From: a virus
Virus record (IMG/VR): IMGVR_UViG_3300031715_000001
Location: 1 to 64,000 of that record
Direction: 5' to 3' (one strand)
Length of the DNA: 64,000 nt
The notes below the pieces were generated by a model. It had not been told where the DNA came from and did no database searches. It saw nothing but the letters and a program-made list of their open reading frames with translations. Both the position numbers and the translations under genes were made by a program. Below are positions 25,674-41,863 of the stretch, piece by piece. The first letter of the stretch is position 1. Each line of letters starts with the position of its first letter.

Positions 25674-25919
25674 TCACTGCTGACTTTCCGTAATTACCGG
25701 TTCATTGGTTAAATCCGAACTTTTGACTGCTCTAAACACTGGCTTCTCTATCGATTCATAAATGACTGCTTCAGTACCATCTGGTTGTGGAGTACCGTCT
25801 ACTTCTTTCCTGACCCTTATACGGCACCATTCCTTTAATAGATCGAGTCTTTCGCCGAAGCTCTGATAAGGCTTACCCGATGCTCCGTTGGTATATTGAA
25901 TTACAGCGCGGTATTTCAT
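25674..25919 (-). CDS. Small hypothetical protein
   Basis: An 81-aa protein (MKYRAVIQYTNGASGKPYQS, then WCRIRVRKEVDG) that looks like a small beta-alpha-beta fold. ATGA overlap with the methyltransferase stop. Family not recognised. Confidence 0.6.
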   Translation of the reverse strand: MKYRAVIQYTNGASGKPYQSFGERLDLLKEWCRIRVRKEVDGTPQPDGTEAVIYESIEKPVFRAVKSSDLTNEPVITESQQ

Positions 25920-27304
25920 GATTTGATCTCCAAGGTTTTGCCAAGGAGTCCCTCAGACAATCTGGAACGACCCTGAAGCTGGCTCAGAGCTACTTCATCC
26001 GTCGGCGTGCAATCGGTTTCGGTACCGAACAGCACATCCTGTCTCAGCCGCTTGATCGACATTGTGAGATACCGCTCGTTCAATTCGATCCCAATGCAAC
26101 GCCGCCCATTTTGTTTGGACACCAGGGCCGTAGTCGCCGCACCCGAGAACGGATCCAAGATCGTTCCGCCTACCGGGCAACCGGCCAGGACGCAGGGCAG
26201 GATCAGCGCGGGCGGGTATGTCGCGAAGTGGGCTTCCGGAAAGGGATACGTCGGCACGACCCAGACTGACCGCTTGTTACGGTACTCAACCACGTCCTTA
26301 ACAGCGGCACTGAATGATTCGTTTTGACGTATCCCACTTCCCGGCTCGGCGCACTTGGGATTAACGCCTGAGGGGCGCGCGAACTTCGATCCTGGTTTAT
26401 TTGTCGCGATGGTCTGACTACCAGGACCGCCATCCGCCCACTTGTGAGTGTCGCTGCGACCTCGTGCATAGCGTGCGTGTGTGTCATCGGAGGCTTGTTC
26501 CTTGATCGCATCAGCGTCGTAAAAATACCGTTCGCTCTTCGCCAGAAGAAAGATCTGCTCATGCGTTTTGGTCGGCCGATCAAGCACGCTTTCGGGAAGC
26601 GGATTGGGCTTGTGCCAGATGATCTCAGAACGAAGCCACCAGCCATCCTCCTGGAGCGCCAGAGCAGCACGCCAGGGAATACCGAGCAGGTCTTTAGGTT
26701 TTATCCCCGGCGCACCCGCCCATTTTCGGCGCACGGCTGTCCATGATGGGACGCTACCGTCAGCGCTTCGTGTATGCTTACCAGTGTTCGCTCCGCCCCC
26801 GCCCCATTTGTCCGAATTGCAGAACGTGTCACCCAAATTGAGCCATAGCGTCCCATCGTTCCGTAATACCCTCCGCACCTCGCGAAAGATCCCCACCAGG
26901 CGCTCAATGTATTCAGGGTAGGTTCGCTCCAGCCCGAGTTGCCGGTCGACGCGCTGGGCTCCGCATTTGCGGCATTCATCCTTGTAAACGGCCTGGGCGG
27001 TGAATGTCCGATCCGCCCGTTGCCCACTCGTGCCTTGCGTCCCGTGGTTGTAGACGTGATCACAATCCGGGAGTCCTCCCATCCATTCGGCCGTGCCGTA
27101 ATCCCGAAGTCCAAAATACGGAGGGCTCGTTATGCAGCAATGCACGCTCTCATCGGGCAAGCGGCGCAACACGTCCAGTGCGTCTCCGAGATAGAGGGTC
27201 ACGCCGGAATGCTCGTAGTAAGGAGCGAGTACACGTCCGTCCGCACGCTGGTCAAGTAGGTCTGAGCCAGCTTCAGGGACGCGAGAGTGTGTCTGTGGGA
27301 CCAA
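25916..27304 (-). CDS. Site-specific DNA methyltransferase (N4-cytosine/N6-adenine type)
   Basis: The order of motifs is that of a beta-class amino-methyltransferase: catalytic motif IV ITSPPYFGLRDYG at about residues 58-70, and the AdoMet motif I DPFSGAATTALVSKQNGRRC with GIELNERYL near the C-terminus. SPPY motifs fit N4-cytosine enzymes best. At 462 aa it has a sizeable target-recognition insert (KWGGGGANTGKHTRSADGS region). No cognate restriction gene is adjacent, so self-protection or anti-restriction is likely. Both ends contain family B sequence in frame (PEAGSDLLD near the start, LSQLQGRSRLSEG near the end). Confidence 0.92.
   Translation of the reverse strand: MVPQTHSRVPEAGSDLLDQRADGRVLAPYYEHSGVTLYLGDALDVLRRLPDESVHCCITSPPYFGLRDYGTAEWMGGLPDCDHVYNHGTQGTSGQRADRTFTAQAVYKDECRKCGAQRVDRQLGLERTYPEYIERLVGIFREVRRVLRNDGTLWLNLGDTFCNSDKWGGGGANTGKHTRSADGSVPSWTAVRRKWAGAPGIKPKDLLGIPWRAALALQEDGWWLRSEIIWHKPNPLPESVLDRPTKTHEQIFLLAKSERYFYDADAIKEQASDDTHARYARGRSDTHKWADGGPGSQTIATNKPGSKFARPSGVNPKCAEPGSGIRQNESFSAAVKDVVEYRNKRSVWVVPTYPFPEAHFATYPPALILPCVLAGCPVGGTILDPFSGAATTALVSKQNGRRCIGIELNERYLTMSIKRLRQDVLFGTETDCTPTDEVALSQLQGRSRLSEGLLGKTLEIKS
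25941..25998. repeat. Family B repeat, copy 2
   Basis: GGAGTCCCTCAGACAATCTG ... CCCTGAAGCTGGCTCAGAGC. It forms the C-terminal coding part of the methyltransferase. Confidence 0.75.
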
Positions 27305-27311: not shown

Positions 27312-28802
27312 TTAGCCTTCTCTTACTTGGAATCTCCGCATAAGTTCTGTAAACGCAAGCGCTGCCTGAAGAGGTACGACCGCAAGTCCCAAGCAGCGAA
27401 GCTGATCGGTTCTTTCCTGGTCCACCACCAGGGAAAGCCCATGTGCCATGCATCGAAAGCCGGGTTCAACCGCAGGGTAGAGCCAACGCGCGTCTCGTCC
27501 AATTTCCGCCCATGCTTCAGCATCCGAGTCCTTAGCGATTCGAAACGCTCTACCGTCAACGCAGGTAAACCACGGGGTATCGCCTCCGTTAACGTGCCTT
27601 CGCTCGTGCCATGCGCCTTGTCCGGGCGGGAAAAGTCGATGGCTTGCGTCGTAAGGCTCTCCTGGTTCTGTCGGCTGGCCATTCCTTCCGGACGGGATTG
27701 GTAGCCTTGACGCGCTTCCGTCGAGGTTGGCGCTGCCCAGTTCTGTGTCTGCTCCCGAAGATTCGGCCCCATTACTCCGTTGCTGCGCGTGCTGGTATTG
27801 GCGTCCGCTGTCGCCCAATTCCGAACCTGTCCGGTCAGGCTGTCTCCCTCGGATCTCGGATGGTTCCCGCAACTCTCGGCATCCTCCGATCGCGGCGCTG
27901 ACCACTTCACTACTTCGTCCGTCAGGTTCCGGCCTCCGTGCTCCGTTCCGTACCGGCCCACCCGATCCCGATTCCCCGGAGCCATGTCGTGCGCTTGGGG
28001 CGTGCTCCAGTGCCGGGTCTGTGATTCCAGGTCGACTTGCCGCTTCCCCGTGGCCGTTGCGCCCTTCGCCTCCACGTCCTCCCTGGACATCACGCGTCCG
28101 CCGTTCGGAGCGTTCGCCGTCGCCCAAGCCTTGGTCGCGATCGCCAGCGGGACGCCCGCGCCATTGCCGTTGCAGCCCTTCTCCTTGAGCGCAGCCTGCC
28201 GCGCATACCAGCTCTCCGGGCGCTCCCCATCGTTCATCTGTGCGGCCCCGCTCGCGGGCCAGAATGAACGTCCTGTTTCTCTCCTGGGCGGCGCCCACGT
28301 CGGACGCTCGAAAAGTAATCCACTCCGCATCGAACCCGAGTTCGGAAAGCGCTCCAAGAACAAACCACAGCCCCGCTGGTAAAACCCAGCTAGGTTCTTC
28401 GTCGTCGGAGTGGGGAACAAGGATTCCTGAGACGTTCTCCACAAACACCCATCCGGGTCGAACGTCGCGAATGATCCGTGCGAACTCAAACCAGAGACCG
28501 GATGCGGTTTCCGCAGTGATTCCTTTTCGATCACCGGCCACGGATAAATCGGTGCACGGGAAACCACCGCAGATGAGGTCGATTTCACCGCGCCATTCCG
28601 ATCCATCGAAAGTGCGGACATCAGACCAGATCGGAGCGTCGTCAATTGACCCTTCCTGAATACGCGTAACCAAAAGCTCGACGGCTTTAATTTCGTTCTC
28701 CACGTAACAGACTGAGCGAACATTTGAGCCAAGCGCGATTCTGAGTCCGAGGTCCAGTCCGGCAGTACCTCCGGTGAACAGGCTGAGGGCACGTAGAGCC
28801 AC
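27312..28802 (-). CDS. C5-cytosine DNA methyltransferase (Dcm-type), overprinted
   Basis: Motif I ALSLFTGGTAGLDLGL, motif IV GGFPCTDLSVAG with the catalytic Cys, motif VI VFVENVSG, motif VIII AAQERNRTF, and a C-terminal LRCLGLAVVPLQAALAF (motif X type) are all present. The middle third is low-complexity (G/R/E/D-rich) where the target-recognition region would be, which fits selection on another frame. Starts with GTG at 28802, overlapping the ATG of the frame-shifted ORF at 28804 (ATGTG); a single AAGGAGGGG lies upstream. It ends 11 bp after that ORF. Confidence 0.88.
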   Translation of the reverse strand: MALRALSLFTGGTAGLDLGLRIALGSNVRSVCYVENEIKAVELLVTRIQEGSIDDAPIWSDVRTFDGSEWRGEIDLICGGFPCTDLSVAGDRKGITAETASGLWFEFARIIRDVRPGWVFVENVSGILVPHSDDEEPSWVLPAGLWFVLGALSELGFDAEWITFRASDVGAAQERNRTFILARERGRTDERWGAPGELVCAAGCAQGEGLQRQWRGRPAGDRDQGLGDGERSERRTRDVQGGRGGEGRNGHGEAASRPGITDPALEHAPSARHGSGESGSGGPVRNGARRPEPDGRSSEVVSAAIGGCRELREPSEIRGRQPDRTGSELGDSGRQYQHAQQRSNGAESSGADTELGSANLDGSASRLPIPSGRNGQPTEPGEPYDASHRLFPPGQGAWHERRHVNGGDTPWFTCVDGRAFRIAKDSDAEAWAEIGRDARWLYPAVEPGFRCMAHGLSLVVDQERTDQLRCLGLAVVPLQAALAFTELMRRFQVREG

Positions 28803-28804
28803 AT
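27323..28804 (-). CDS. WxTPxxxD-repeat phage protein in an overlapping frame of the Dcm gene
   Basis: A 493-codon frame that starts 2 bp before and stops 11 bp before the Dcm frame. It has features of a separate phage protein type: an N-terminal ACSPEVLPDWTSDSESRLA, WRTKLKPSSFWLRVF, FLERFPNSGSMRSGLLFERP, a set of spaced W-S/A-T/A-P-x-A repeats (HWSTPQAHD, KWSAPRSED, NWATADANT, NWAAPTSTE), and a terminal LNPAFDAWHMGFPWWWT. That ending matches the LNPxFxEWLMGFPxGWT signature. Function unknown; possibly works with the methyltransferase. The alternative is that these signatures are frame echoes of Dcm genes mis-annotated elsewhere. Confidence 0.6.
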   Translation of the reverse strand: MWLYVPSACSPEVLPDWTSDSESRLAQMFAQSVTWRTKLKPSSFWLRVFRKGQLTTLRSGLMSALSMDRNGAVKSTSSAVVSRAPIYPWPVIEKESLRKPHPVSGLSSHGSFATFDPDGCLWRTSQESLFPTPTTKNLAGFYQRGCGLFLERFPNSGSMRSGLLFERPTWAPPRRETGRSFWPASGAAQMNDGERPESWYARQAALKEKGCNGNGAGVPLAIATKAWATANAPNGGRVMSREDVEAKGATATGKRQVDLESQTRHWSTPQAHDMAPGNRDRVGRYGTEHGGRNLTDEVVKWSAPRSEDAESCGNHPRSEGDSLTGQVRNWATADANTSTRSNGVMGPNLREQTQNWAAPTSTEARQGYQSRPEGMASRQNQESLTTQAIDFSRPDKAHGTSEGTLTEAIPRGLPALTVERFESLRTRMLKHGRKLDETRVGSTLRLNPAFDAWHMGFPWWWTRKEPISFAAWDLRSYLFRQRLRLQNLCGDSK

Positions 28805-28839
28805 CTATTCGTTCCCCTCCTTCACGCCTTCAAAATATT

Positions 28840-30777: not shown

Positions 30778-30832
30778 TCACTCGCCGCAACTGACCCCGT
30801 ATTCCGGGGTCAGGCATGGCAACTCGGGGTCA
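30579..30832. repeat. Five TGACCCCG sites flanking the tRNA half (candidate integrase arm sites)
   Basis: Direct copies at 30581-30588, 30593-30600 and 30792-30799, inverted copies at 30805-30812 and 30825-30832. The last direct and first inverted copies form a hairpin CTGACCCCG-TATTC-CGGGGTCAG. Confidence 0.6.
30691..30733 (-). tRNA. Partial tRNA-Lys(UUU): 5' half only
   Basis: Read on the - strand: acceptor 5' strand GGGCCGG, TA, D-arm GCTC-AGTTGGTA-GAGC, A, anticodon arm TCGCA-CTTTTAA-TGCGA with anticodon TTT. After this the sequence departs: no variable loop, T-arm (GGTTCGA) or acceptor 3' strand. It is therefore a tRNA fragment, best explained as the phage-borne half of an attachment site using the tRNA-Lys anticodon arm; the integrase lies about 600 bp away. 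Confidence 0.85.
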
Positions 30833-31338
30833 AACACAACACCTAAACCACGCGCCACGATCGCCAAATGATCAAACTTGCTGCGATCACTGATCGATGG
30901 CTTTTGAGCTTTTCCTTTGACCGATCCCCTGGTCTTTACCTCTATCCGCAGGATTGTATTTCCCCGGATCGCGATTAAATCGCAAGACGCACAGTGGGAA
31001 ACGGAACGAAAAACATCGTAGCCGGCATTCAGCAGATGCACTGCGGCGATCAGCTCGGATGTAGATCCGACTGTTACCTGGTTCGATTCCCGAACGGCTC
31101 TTAATTCAGCTACCGCAGTCTGCATCTCGTTGCGGACTTGCTTGCTGAACGAACCGAGGTCCAAGAGAATCTGTTTTAGTTTCTCCTCAGCGACGGCGCG
31201 ATTCTCGGAACCAGTAGATTCACAAATTACCCGCGATCCAGTTCGGTACTTAAAGTACCAAGTTTTTGTGCGACACAAGTTACCCTGCCGATCCCGATAG
31301 GGCTTTTGAAAGATAGAGCCTTCGCCCGCTTTTCTCAT
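30778..31338 (-). CDS. Integrase-arm-domain / PD-(D/E)XK nuclease fusion
   Basis: Residues 1-60 resemble the N-terminal arm-binding domain of the adjacent integrase: GEGSIFQKPYRDRQGNL, TKTWYFKYRTGSR, ESTGSENRAVAEEKL. After a helical linker, residues 90-165 carry a nuclease-type motif: E95 in STSELIAAVHLLNAGYDVF, D120 in CDLIAI and E133-x-K135 in RIEVKTR. This resembles PDDEXK_5 proteins (such as the group I intron-encoded I-SspI type). The start overlaps the integrase stop by ATGA. The pairing suggests a factor acting at the same DNA sites as the integrase. Confidence 0.75.
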   Translation of the reverse strand: MRKAGEGSIFQKPYRDRQGNLCRTKTWYFKYRTGSRVICESTGSENRAVAEEKLKQILLDLGSFSKQVRNEMQTAVAELRAVRESNQVTVGSTSELIAAVHLLNAGYDVFRSVSHCASCDLIAIRGNTILRIEVKTRGSVKGKAQKPSISDRSKFDHLAIVARGLGVVFDPELPCLTPEYGVSCGE

Positions 31339-32450
31339 TGAATTGATCCGTTCGCTGCGGCCACCGCTTCTTCTTCCTTGGCCCGCATGTGAATCTCAAG
31401 CCGGCTCGCCATCTCTTTCAGGCGCCGCTCGCTCACGATGTGATAGCGGTCGAAGACATCGCGCGTGAGATGCCCGGAGATCTCCATGGCTTCTTTCTCC
31501 GAGAAGCCGGCTTCGATCATGTTGGTGATCGCAGTCCGCCGCAAATCATGAAACAGGGACTGGGGAACTCCGGCCATCTCGCAGGCCGTCGCCCAGGATT
31601 TCTCAAAATCGTATACGCGCTTGCCTTTGCGCTGGATCAAAAACGGACAGGCGGGATTTCCAGCCGCTAATGCCATTTCGATTTCCGGTCCCATCTGTCC
31701 GTAGATGGGTAGGAACCGCGCGTGTTTATTCTTCACCGAGCGTGAAAGCAACTCGATGCGCCCGGCTTTGAGATTCACCTTGTCGCGGAGGATGCTCAAG
31801 ACCTCGCCCTTGCGTGCTCCCGTATGGTATCCGATCACCAGCGCGATCCGGGCGTAGGAGGGCAGGGCATCTCTCACACTCCGGTATTGTTCATGCTCAA
31901 GCGTTCCCTCGCGCGCATCGCCGTTAGGAAGCATATCGAATTTTGGGACGCGACCGACGAGAGGCGGATCCTGTCGTTCGCCTAGCTTCAAGGCTCTTCG
32001 AACATAGGCCAGCTCGCGGTTGATCGTGCCGTTGGCCGGCCGCGGCTTGTGCTGGCGGCGCCAGGCGATGAAACGATCGATCTCGCTCGATGTCACATTC
32101 GACGCCTTTATATTCCCGAACCAGGCGCGCAAGCCGGTTTCCTTTTCGATCATGTATTTCAGGTCGTAGGTGGTCCGCCGTTCCTTTTTGGCGTACCAGG
32201 CCAGCAACAAGTCAAACAGATCGCCCATGCGGACGCGCTCGGGCTCCCCGCCTATCTGTGTGGCGAGTCCCGCCATTTGACGGCGCAGGAACTTGATCGC
32301 TTCGTCCCGGTTCTCGGTTCCGGTAGCTACTTCCCGCCGTTCACCGTTGACGTAATATCTTGCATACCAGACTTTGGTTTTTGTGAAATCACCTTCCCGT
32401 GTTCTATAACGACGCTGTATCACTGTTCCCGAGGCTAATTTATTAGGCAT
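31335..32450 (-). CDS. int: Tyrosine integrase
   Basis: A 371-aa tyrosine recombinase. The arm-binding domain (GTVIQRRYRTREGDFTKTKV) is followed by a core-binding domain (about 74-165) and the catalytic domain: R213 in HTGARKGEVLSI, H301-x-x-R304 in FHDLRRTAITN, H327 in SGHLTRDVFDRYHI and nucleophile Y336. It would integrate the element at a tRNA-Lys-derived site. Coupled to the radical-SAM gene upstream (TAATG) and the nuclease fusion downstream (ATGA). Confidence 0.95.
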   Translation of the reverse strand: MPNKLASGTVIQRRYRTREGDFTKTKVWYARYYVNGERREVATGTENRDEAIKFLRRQMAGLATQIGGEPERVRMGDLFDLLLAWYAKKERRTTYDLKYMIEKETGLRAWFGNIKASNVTSSEIDRFIAWRRQHKPRPANGTINRELAYVRRALKLGERQDPPLVGRVPKFDMLPNGDAREGTLEHEQYRSVRDALPSYARIALVIGYHTGARKGEVLSILRDKVNLKAGRIELLSRSVKNKHARFLPIYGQMGPEIEMALAAGNPACPFLIQRKGKRVYDFEKSWATACEMAGVPQSLFHDLRRTAITNMIEAGFSEKEAMEISGHLTRDVFDRYHIVSERRLKEMASRLEIHMRAKEEEAVAAANGSIQ

Positions 32451-40037: not shown

Positions 40038-40615
40038 AACTTCGCCTCGAGGGTGGCTTTGGCGGCGAGGCAGATGGCGAGCGGGGCGGTGGCTGCGAAC
40101 GCTTGATAGTGAGGCTCGTCGTCGTCAGTCTTTGAGAAACAAGTGTGCCAATCGTCAGTCCAGTGAGCAGCGGGCCGCTCGGTTGTAGAGGCTGCATTCA
40201 CGGTGGCATGCCAGCCCAGTTCCCTCATCCGCTCCACCACGCTCCAGGCATCAGAGATTCCAGTTGAAAATCCGGGACATAAACGGGAATTGCCTTTCTC
40301 GTCGCGCCAATGGGAATTTAGCGCAACCCACCCACCGAGCATCATCGTCCCGCGAGGCACGAACCGCCAGCCAAGGCAATGCTCAGCAATCCAGACATCC
40401 AATTCTTCGCCCGGAGCGCCGCCATCGACCGAAGACGGGTGCCCCAACTTATCCGCAGGATCGGCCAGGGGAATCCAGGAACGGTCTACTTGTGAGCGGA
40501 CAAGATCGGGCTCTGAGGATGCCCCTACCCGAGGCCGGGCATCCTTGGATGCTAGTGGTCGGGACAAAGCCGAATCTTTCCCGGCCGACGTCGTCATATC
40601 ATCTTCATGTTTCAT
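40034..40615 (-). CDS. Phage ABA-sandwich-domain protein with palindrome-derived N-terminus
   Basis: The C-terminal 115 residues fit the Phage_ABA_S domain: LDVWIAEHCLGWRFVPRGTM, PGFSTGISDAWSVVERMREL, WHTCFSK, and TAPLAICLAAKATLEA. The first 65 residues translate the long family A copy 26 (RPLASKDARPRVGASSEPDL, then PADKLGHPSSVDG). The start overlaps the TnpB stop (ATGA). The domain usually sits close to the N-terminus, so the element appears to be inserted just after the start codon. A TTG start at LDVWIAEH is the alternative. Confidence 0.7.
   Translation of the reverse strand: MKHEDDMTTSAGKDSALSRPLASKDARPRVGASSEPDLVRSQVDRSWIPLADPADKLGHPSSVDGGAPGEELDVWIAEHCLGWRFVPRGTMMLGGWVALNSHWRDEKGNSRLCPGFSTGISDAWSVVERMRELGWHATVNAASTTERPAAHWTDDWHTCFSKTDDDEPHYQAFAATAPLAICLAAKATLEAKL
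40411..40572 (+). repeat. Family A palindromic element, copy 26 (long form)
   Basis: CCATCGACCGAAGACGGGTG, CTTATCCGCAGGATCGGCC and GGCATCCTTGGATGCTAGTG mark the arms; about 120 bp matches copy 2 almost exactly. Read in frame as the N-terminus of the ABA-sandwich protein. Confidence 0.85.
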
Positions 40616-41745
40616 GGCACGATACCTCGCATCAGTTGATCAAGCGTTTGATGCTCCCAAAGCGGGATTTCTGATGTCACGCCATAGGCATGTACCTTCT
40701 CGTGGCTCCATCCGAGCCCGGAAATGAGCGCGTTACGAGCGGCGTTAACGTCCCGCTCGTGGTGAGCACCACAGGCCCCGCAGTACCATTCCCTTACCTT
40801 GAGTCCTGCTAAGCCTATTGGACCAGTTAAGGCCCCACAGGTAGAACAGGTCCTCGTGGAATTCCGATTCTCGGGGAAGATCAGTTCCGTACCGCCGATA
40901 AGGCTCTTGTACGAAAGCATGATCCTCAACCCGCCGTGGCCACTATCGCCAACGGATTTTCCAAAACGCTTCGCTATCGCCCGATGATTATCCTTGAGAA
41001 AACAGATCGTCTTGTTCTCCGCTACTAACCGGCGCGACAGCTTGTGGTTCCGATCCCTGCGGCGATTCTTGGCCCGCTCCTGTAAACGATTGGCTAGATG
41101 CCTATTCCAGCCGCGTTGGGCTTGTCCAAATCGCTTCTCGATCTTTCTGAATTCCCGCGGGTGCGATAGCTTTTCGCCGGTACTCAGCGTGACCAGATCT
41201 TTGAAGCCGGGATCAATACCGACGCTAGCTTCGGCGATCCGCCCGATAGCTTTTGGCTGAGCATCGATAAACAGACACAGATACCAGCCGGAAGCGCGTT
41301 TGACAATCCGCCCGCACTTGATTCTGCCCTCAGGAATCCATTGCTTGTGAAAGCCCACCCGTCCAATTCCCTGAATTCCGATCTTGCCGTCCTTGGGACG
41401 CCTCATCGGATCGGGGAACGGAATGGAGTTGAGCGGACGGCGCATTCCTTTAAGTCTCGGCTTGCGCGCCAACCCCTTGAAACAGCGCTGCCACGACATG
41501 TGAACGGTCGAGAGCACCCCCTGTATCGTGTGGCTGGGAATGCCCAAACGCTCACAGTGCCCTGCCAATAGATTGTGGAAGTCTCGCGCCGAAAAGTAAA
41601 TCTTATCTCGCGCGTTTAGCTCGATCTTCCGTAATCCGAAGTTCCAGACCGATCCAAGTATAGGAAGCCAGGAAGACAGAAGCTTCTCCTGTCGCCGATT
41701 CAGCCTGAGCTTGAGTTGATATTGAATCACTGTACTGACGATCAT
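40612..41745 (-). CDS. TnpB-like protein lacking the RuvC-II glutamate
   Basis: ATG 41745 (MIVSTVIQYQLKLRLNRRQE) is preferred. The TnpB frame is otherwise complete: RuvC-I GIDPGFKDLVTLSTGEKLSH, the late zinc finger CSTCGALTG...WYCGACGAHHERD with RuvC-III Asp. In the RuvC-II position, where TnpB has an E (as FEDLNI in the first TnpB), this protein reads ENKTICFLKDNHRAIAKRFG, so the Glu is replaced. It could be nuclease-dead, as TldR repressors are, or from a clade with a rearranged site. No tnpA nearby; the stop overlaps the next gene's start. Confidence 0.8.
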   Translation of the reverse strand: MIVSTVIQYQLKLRLNRRQEKLLSSWLPILGSVWNFGLRKIELNARDKIYFSARDFHNLLAGHCERLGIPSHTIQGVLSTVHMSWQRCFKGLARKPRLKGMRRPLNSIPFPDPMRRPKDGKIGIQGIGRVGFHKQWIPEGRIKCGRIVKRASGWYLCLFIDAQPKAIGRIAEASVGIDPGFKDLVTLSTGEKLSHPREFRKIEKRFGQAQRGWNRHLANRLQERAKNRRRDRNHKLSRRLVAENKTICFLKDNHRAIAKRFGKSVGDSGHGGLRIMLSYKSLIGGTELIFPENRNSTRTCSTCGALTGPIGLAGLKVREWYCGACGAHHERDVNAARNALISGLGWSHEKVHAYGVTSEIPLWEHQTLDQLMRGIVP

Positions 41746-41863
41746 GCTAACATAGCGCGGGCAAGTACGCAAGAGAAAAAGACACTCCGCGCCCGAGATT
41801 AATACTGGTGGAACTCCCCATTGACTATGGGTAGTTAGGCGGGTAAGCTAGCAGGGGAGGGGA

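Follow-up and report, generated by a model that had tools for sequence, protein, structure and literature searches.

Two superimposed genes at a phage C5-cytosine methyltransferase locus, both kept open in many lineages

The stretch of viral DNA analysed here, 64,000 nucleotides long and called the window below, carries two genes, alpha and beta, that lie on the same strand in different frames and overlap almost completely. In many lineages both frames are kept open and residues of beta are under selection. The dual coding is real, and a frame echo is excluded as a reading of the locus. We consider it highly probable that these are two genuine, almost fully superimposed genes for two subunits of one C5-cytosine methyltransferase. 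In brief, the AdoMet-binding, catalytic core with motifs I-VIII would come from alpha, as would motif X. Beta, in the +1 frame with its start 2 nt upstream and served by the same ribosome site, would supply the small domain, a string of exchangeable WxTP modules of 26-45 aa, probably reading the DNA target, plus a motif-IX-like block. In the middle third of the DNA selection would act mainly for beta, with alpha as a linker needing only to stay open, and the shared ribosome site may keep the amounts of alpha and beta similar. We infer that both frames are translated, that the products form a heterodimer, that the modules recognise DNA and that the enzyme protects phage DNA from restriction. 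Such protection is the probable use in the phage because an N4/N6 methyltransferase gene, probably co-transcribed with the locus, lies 7 bp downstream and no cognate endonuclease was recognised among the scanned neighbours.

The initial annotation described two full-length frames of 496 and 493 aa, with starts in ATGTG behind one AAGGAGGGG and stops 11 bp apart, and our coordinates agree (Table 1). It also placed all key C5-methyltransferase motifs in one frame. Motifs I, IV, VI and VIII do lie in alpha, at aa 6-181, but the motif-IX-like block is in beta, motif X of alpha (aa 468-484) is degenerate, and the Pfam PF00145 match (1.3e-29) covers aa 4-185 only. The WxTP repeats reported for the second frame form an array of six WxTP-type modules, and the low complexity reported for the middle of alpha (aa ~187-440) indeed coincides with it. 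Overlooked at that stage were the motif-IX-like block and the apparent recognition modules of the same enzyme in the second frame, and it is because beta seems to hold these that the overlap gains a function.

Alpha matches phrog_363 (2e-49) along its whole length, C-terminal segment included, and beta matches phrog_1008 (1.5e-16), a phage family named DNA methyltransferase; the former family is of alpha type, the latter of beta type. As motif X, relatives have LGNGVVP, of the GNxVxP type; the window alpha has CLGLAVVP, and given GL for GN this copy of alpha could be altered or inactive. A Pfam search recognised nothing in beta and matched motif IX in neither protein, the PDB held no sequence relative of beta, and searches with the single window proteins gave few or no relatives. 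For beta, AlphaFold2 gave models of low quality (mean pLDDT 46 and 52), insufficient for a fold search and confident only at aa ~445-490 of the window protein. Elsewhere in the window an OrfB/TnpB-like protein is encoded inside the viral contig, and a weak nuclease match adjoins a phage integrase.

Table 1. Features of the alpha/beta locus, other window features, and third ORFs in two relatives. Positions are those of the window unless a locus is named.
Feature	Position	Strand	Remarks
Alpha gene	27312..28802	-	GTG start, 496 aa; proposed catalytic subunit
Beta gene	27323..28804	-	493 aa from an ATG, in the +1 frame relative to alpha; carries the array of WxTP modules and the motif-IX-like block
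Shine-Dalgarno-like AAGGAGGGG	28814..28822	-	Single site before the overlapping starts ATGTG of alpha and beta; seen in the sequence
Alpha motif IV, GGFPCTDLS	28542..28568	-	Family motif, with catalytic Cys
Alpha motif VI, FVENVS	28428..28445	-	
Beta SGSMRSGLLFERP	28301..28339	-	Its Gly forces GGG in alpha (143/144 relatives)
Alpha motif VIII, QERNRTFIL	28260..28286	-	
Beta array of six WxTP-type modules	27644..28261	-	Beta aa 182-387; alpha here is a low-complexity linker; based on splitting beta into modules and on their matches in other phages at different slots of the array
Beta motif-IX-like block, RLNPAFDAWHMGFPWWWT	27419..27472	-	
Alpha motif X, LRCLGLAVVPLQAALAF	27351..27401	-	Degenerate, GL for GN; phrog_1008 positions 294-323 match here
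N4/N6 DNA methyltransferase	25916..27304	-	462 aa; PF01555, 1.9e-45; next gene downstream, 7 bp past the alpha stop
PD-(D/E)XK nuclease match (weak) and phage integrase	30778..32450	-	Nuclease match 30778-31338, integrase 31335-32450
OrfB/TnpB-like protein, IS605 type	40612..41772	-	PF07282, PF01385
Third ORF with motif X, alpha frame	L246:3338-3652; L255:3515-3910		After many stops

The recognition domain of C5-methyltransferases sits between motifs VIII and IX (PMC3404938). The WxTP modules occupy this position, since in phages Saroj, Derg and Moonbeam a single ORF runs from motifs I-VIII through WxTP modules and the motif-IX-like block to motif X. Splitting 216 beta proteins gave 589 modules, and module types, defined by single-linkage clusters of which some are mixed, recur at different slots. 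The type NxPNGGR...KGxTxxGxxxVxLES, for example, is the second of six modules in the window, the third of six in L005, the first of three in L192 and the fifth of nine in L213. E. coli prophages that are about 89% alike have modules varying in number, kind and order between unchanged flanks; in four related E. coli prophage loci (L265, L271, L272 and L273) the varying modules lie in an unannotated beta frame. This pattern suggests that the WxTP modules are exchangeable target-recognition elements. They would read DNA, and beta is probably the target-recognition subunit.

We tentatively equate the beta block with motif IX by resemblance, and the proposed division, motifs I-VIII and X in alpha and IX in beta, depends on this. 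In a profile alignment RLNAAFxEWMMGWP of beta lands on RRLTPRECARLMGF of E. coli Dcm and KL3, a weak match (pairwise E 0.007, probability 5%). Pfam does not detect motif IX even in the fused one-chain proteins, and Pfam and PDB profiles gave nothing. The idea that phrog_363 represents an ordinary one-chain enzyme was dropped: in L265, the E. coli member of this family, the beta frame is open as well and contains WPTP and LNPAHSRWLMGLP. That phrog_363 matches fused proteins is for this reason no proof of motif IX.

Beta could be real and yet have a separate function, for example as a restriction inhibitor or regulator, next to an alpha made self-sufficient by an unusual motif IX, EPxxxRxADGxxxRVDRLxxxGN. 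We regard this as very unlikely. The C-terminal segment with that sequence is included in the full-length phrog_363 match, and the failure of Pfam to recognise beta also speaks for it; against it, the WxTP block of one-chain and split relatives lies exactly between VIII and X, where C5-methyltransferases have their recognition domain (PMC3404938), and no beta was found without an alpha N-half, either overlapping or directly upstream.

The geometry of the two superimposed genes recurs in hundreds of phage and prophage loci across many bacteria. Twelve phage records have motifs I-VIII in one frame and WxTP repeats with a LNPxWVEWLMGWPxGWTD-like block in the +1 frame, and motif X usually returns to the first frame. 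Beta is open for 298 codons in Acinetobacter phage ABMM1 (41% GC across the fetched stretch), and both frames are open for about 350-410 codons in marine viral contigs of 44-47% GC. The start arrangement is ATGTG in the window; most members of the other large group have ATGAATG or a variant of it. Of 80 loci, about nine (L062 and others with TTAAATGAGTTG) lack an alpha start codon in its usual position and have an intact beta ATG; alpha probably starts at a TTG just downstream. Beta starts within alpha in Paenibacillus phage Diva and in L191, and motif X lies in beta in L061 and L083. In phage Wile the half with WxTP modules, IX and X is a separate next ORF that begins inside the end of the first (gp75/gp74). 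In L029 and L094 a single frame change in the middle fuses the N-half of alpha to beta's motif-IX-like block, and in L263 one places motif X in the beta frame; these are either natural frame swaps or sequencing errors.

In six viral loci (L187, L205, L246, L251, L255 and L260) alpha ends after motif VIII, many alpha-frame stops follow in the middle, and beta is full-length. A third ORF, 85-132 aa long (Table 1 gives two examples), encodes motif X there. It has an ATG of its own, preceded in most cases by a purine-rich site, and a three-polypeptide C5-methyltransferase is possible in these loci. The middle of alpha decays where it is not needed while beta stays open, which provides a natural control for beta. 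The alpha frame full of stops between VIII and X in these loci would also fit a single polypeptide made by two programmed frameshifts, with I-VIII read in the alpha frame, a move to +1 for the modules and the IX-like block, and a return for X. All motifs would then come in canonical order, and this one-chain order exists in some phages. We nevertheless find such a polypeptide very unlikely: it leaves unexplained why the beta frame, beginning at its own start, is kept open already across motifs I-VIII and why about 70 of 79 loci have an open alpha frame across the middle, and motif X of the six exceptions comes with an ATG of its own and in most a purine-rich site ahead.

Avoidance of stops is one line of evidence for two separate genes. 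Synonymous-codon shuffles of alpha in the window gave a mean of 7.4 beta-frame stops against one observed (P about 8e-4), and this sole stop falls in beta's own end region, past the end of beta. When beta was shuffled instead (5000 shuffles), 14.3 alpha-frame stops were expected; none is present, and no shuffle reached zero. The third frame of the window is at chance level, with 20 stops versus 20.5 expected.

A scan of viral contigs with a beta alignment returned more than 550 relatives, of which 80 loci were kept. Both frames are stop-free across the matched stretch in 76 of these 80, and 75 viral loci found with beta contain no beta-frame stop against 337 expected and, given beta, no alpha-frame stop against 698. 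It should be noted that this first set was chosen by beta, which introduces ascertainment. The stop test was repeated with alpha-only queries and is then free of ASCERTAINMENT. The N-domain of alpha served as query, beta-frame stops were counted in codons 2-156 of the genome loci, and expectations came from synonymous shuffles. The 80 bacterial genome loci picked by alpha alone, from Proteobacteria, Chloroflexi, Verrucomicrobia, Planctomycetes and others, hold no beta-frame stop versus 164 expected, and 79 viral loci of the window's own group, picked in the same way, hold two versus 152. In the control, 193 neighbouring genes, 1220 stops were counted in the same frame versus 1279 expected, and none of the genes is stop-free. 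The initial annotation had taken stops freely entering the second frame of close relatives as the sign that would speak against dual coding; across about 230 loci they do not enter freely, with a clean control in the neighbouring genes.

Selection on the amino acids of beta can be read from four-fold degenerate codons of alpha, whose third base is the second base of a beta codon. Among 144 compared loci, A275 of alpha is GCC in 137/137, which sets the Pro of MGWP in beta; G136 is GGG in 143/144, G273 is GGG in 128/131, V68 is GTT in 124/129 and A10 is GCT in 125/131. Several bases are used at most other four-fold alpha sites. Divergence by codon position points the same way: alpha position 3 varies in motifs I-VIII and X, and alpha position 1, equal to beta position 3, varies in the middle and in the motif-IX-like block. 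The same switch of the variable position, from the N-terminal to the middle part, is seen between the window and seven relatives.

An OLGenie-like count over 59 disjoint pairs, the kind of codon-level check proposed in the initial annotation, yielded dN/dS values for alpha of 0.20 (N part), 1.01 (middle) and 0.54 (IX-like block), and for beta of 0.55, 0.53 and 0.29, respectively. In the N part (motifs I-VIII) the beta value of 0.551 is only slightly lower than that of a conservative codon-shuffle null, 0.574 +- 0.008. The same null fails on the missing beta stops of this part (0 seen versus 56). Most of the beta signal in the motif I-VIII region is stop avoidance together with specific sites, and since the stricter null reproduces most of the average signal there, we do not use dN/dS as the main argument. 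In the middle alpha is free of amino-acid constraint and beta is constrained. We suggest that alpha looks low-complexity there because it serves as a linker needing no more than an open frame, the selection being mainly on beta.

That alpha alone is translated, the second frame being open and similar owing to alpha conservation and GC-rich DNA, is so improbable as to be negligible: the window has about 60% GC, and some of the similarity of beta across motifs I-VIII does reflect residues conserved in alpha, but the near absence of beta stops in loci picked by alpha alone (0/164 and 2/152) has no counterpart in neighbouring genes, four-fold alpha codons are frozen, dN/dS in the middle is 1.0 for alpha and 0.53 for beta, and phage genomes at 41-47% GC hold beta open for about 230-390 codons. 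These phages and the neighbouring-gene control rule out a pure GC effect.

The initial annotation had left the choice between real dual coding and a widely mis-annotated frame echo. The dual coding and the mis-annotation stand and the echo does not: records usually annotate one frame only, and sometimes beta alone. The beta frame is the one annotated as Alfacinha1 gp46 and as a Pseudomonas phage protein, and E. coli, Salmonella phage and Acinetobacter plasmid records carry alpha only. The E. coli prophage locus L271 is annotated as two 'incomplete' pseudogenes, and both frames run through it. Diva gp50 is annotated as 'g49 internal gene'.

A broader statement has, in our judgement, slightly better than even chances, namely that a common family of phage and prophage C5-methyltransferases is a nested two-gene enzyme, three-gene in some phages, in which the overlapped frame encodes the recognition subunit as a recombining array of DNA-reading modules, each about 30-45 aa long, so that module shuffling changes methylation specificity within a gene that has to remain open in two frames. 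If true, this is a long and very widespread instance of dual coding among phages and bacteria, and its independent natural copies, which number in the hundreds, would serve to study two proteins evolving on one DNA. Many annotated 'DNA cytosine methyltransferase' genes would then lack their recognition subunit in the databases, some intact copies would be mislabelled as pseudogenes, and the methylated sequence should be predicted from beta, not alpha. Swappable modules could make it possible to decipher a code that links modules to DNA targets. In the literature on overlapping methyltransferase genes in phages we found no paper describing a conserved dual-coding gene or module swapping.

Several known enzymes resemble parts of the proposed one. 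M.EcoHK31I and, like it, M.EaeI are two-polypeptide C5-methyltransferases, and the small subunit of M.EcoHK31I is encoded in an alternative frame inside the large-subunit gene. The large subunit of M.EcoHK31I carries motifs I-VIII and X and the small subunit motif IX, and its predicted recognition domain was placed in the large subunit (PMC3404938). Compared by these described features, the window locus would be similar in having I-VIII and a degenerate X in alpha and, if the resemblance holds, motif IX in beta, and the second subunit is likewise encoded in another, overlapping frame. It differs in that the variable array is in beta and not in the large subunit, where the alpha middle has a dN/dS of 1.01, and in that beta equals alpha in length, begins and stops together with it and contains repeated modules. 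M.AquI, also a C5-methyltransferase, consists of two polypeptides divided at the variable region (PMC3404938). It has both IX and X in the small subunit, whereas the window has X in alpha and almost fully overlapping genes. Wile gp75/gp74 looks to be of the M.AquI kind, and its second polypeptide, like those of L061 and L083, has both IX and X. In Diva (gp49/gp50) annotators noticed the internal gene, but beta starts inside alpha there, unlike in the window. The multi-specific phage C5-methyltransferases of the SPR/phi3T type have several recognition modules between motifs VIII and IX, all in one frame. Judged by this architecture, the window locus is like them in its multiple putative recognition modules and unlike them in using more than a single frame.
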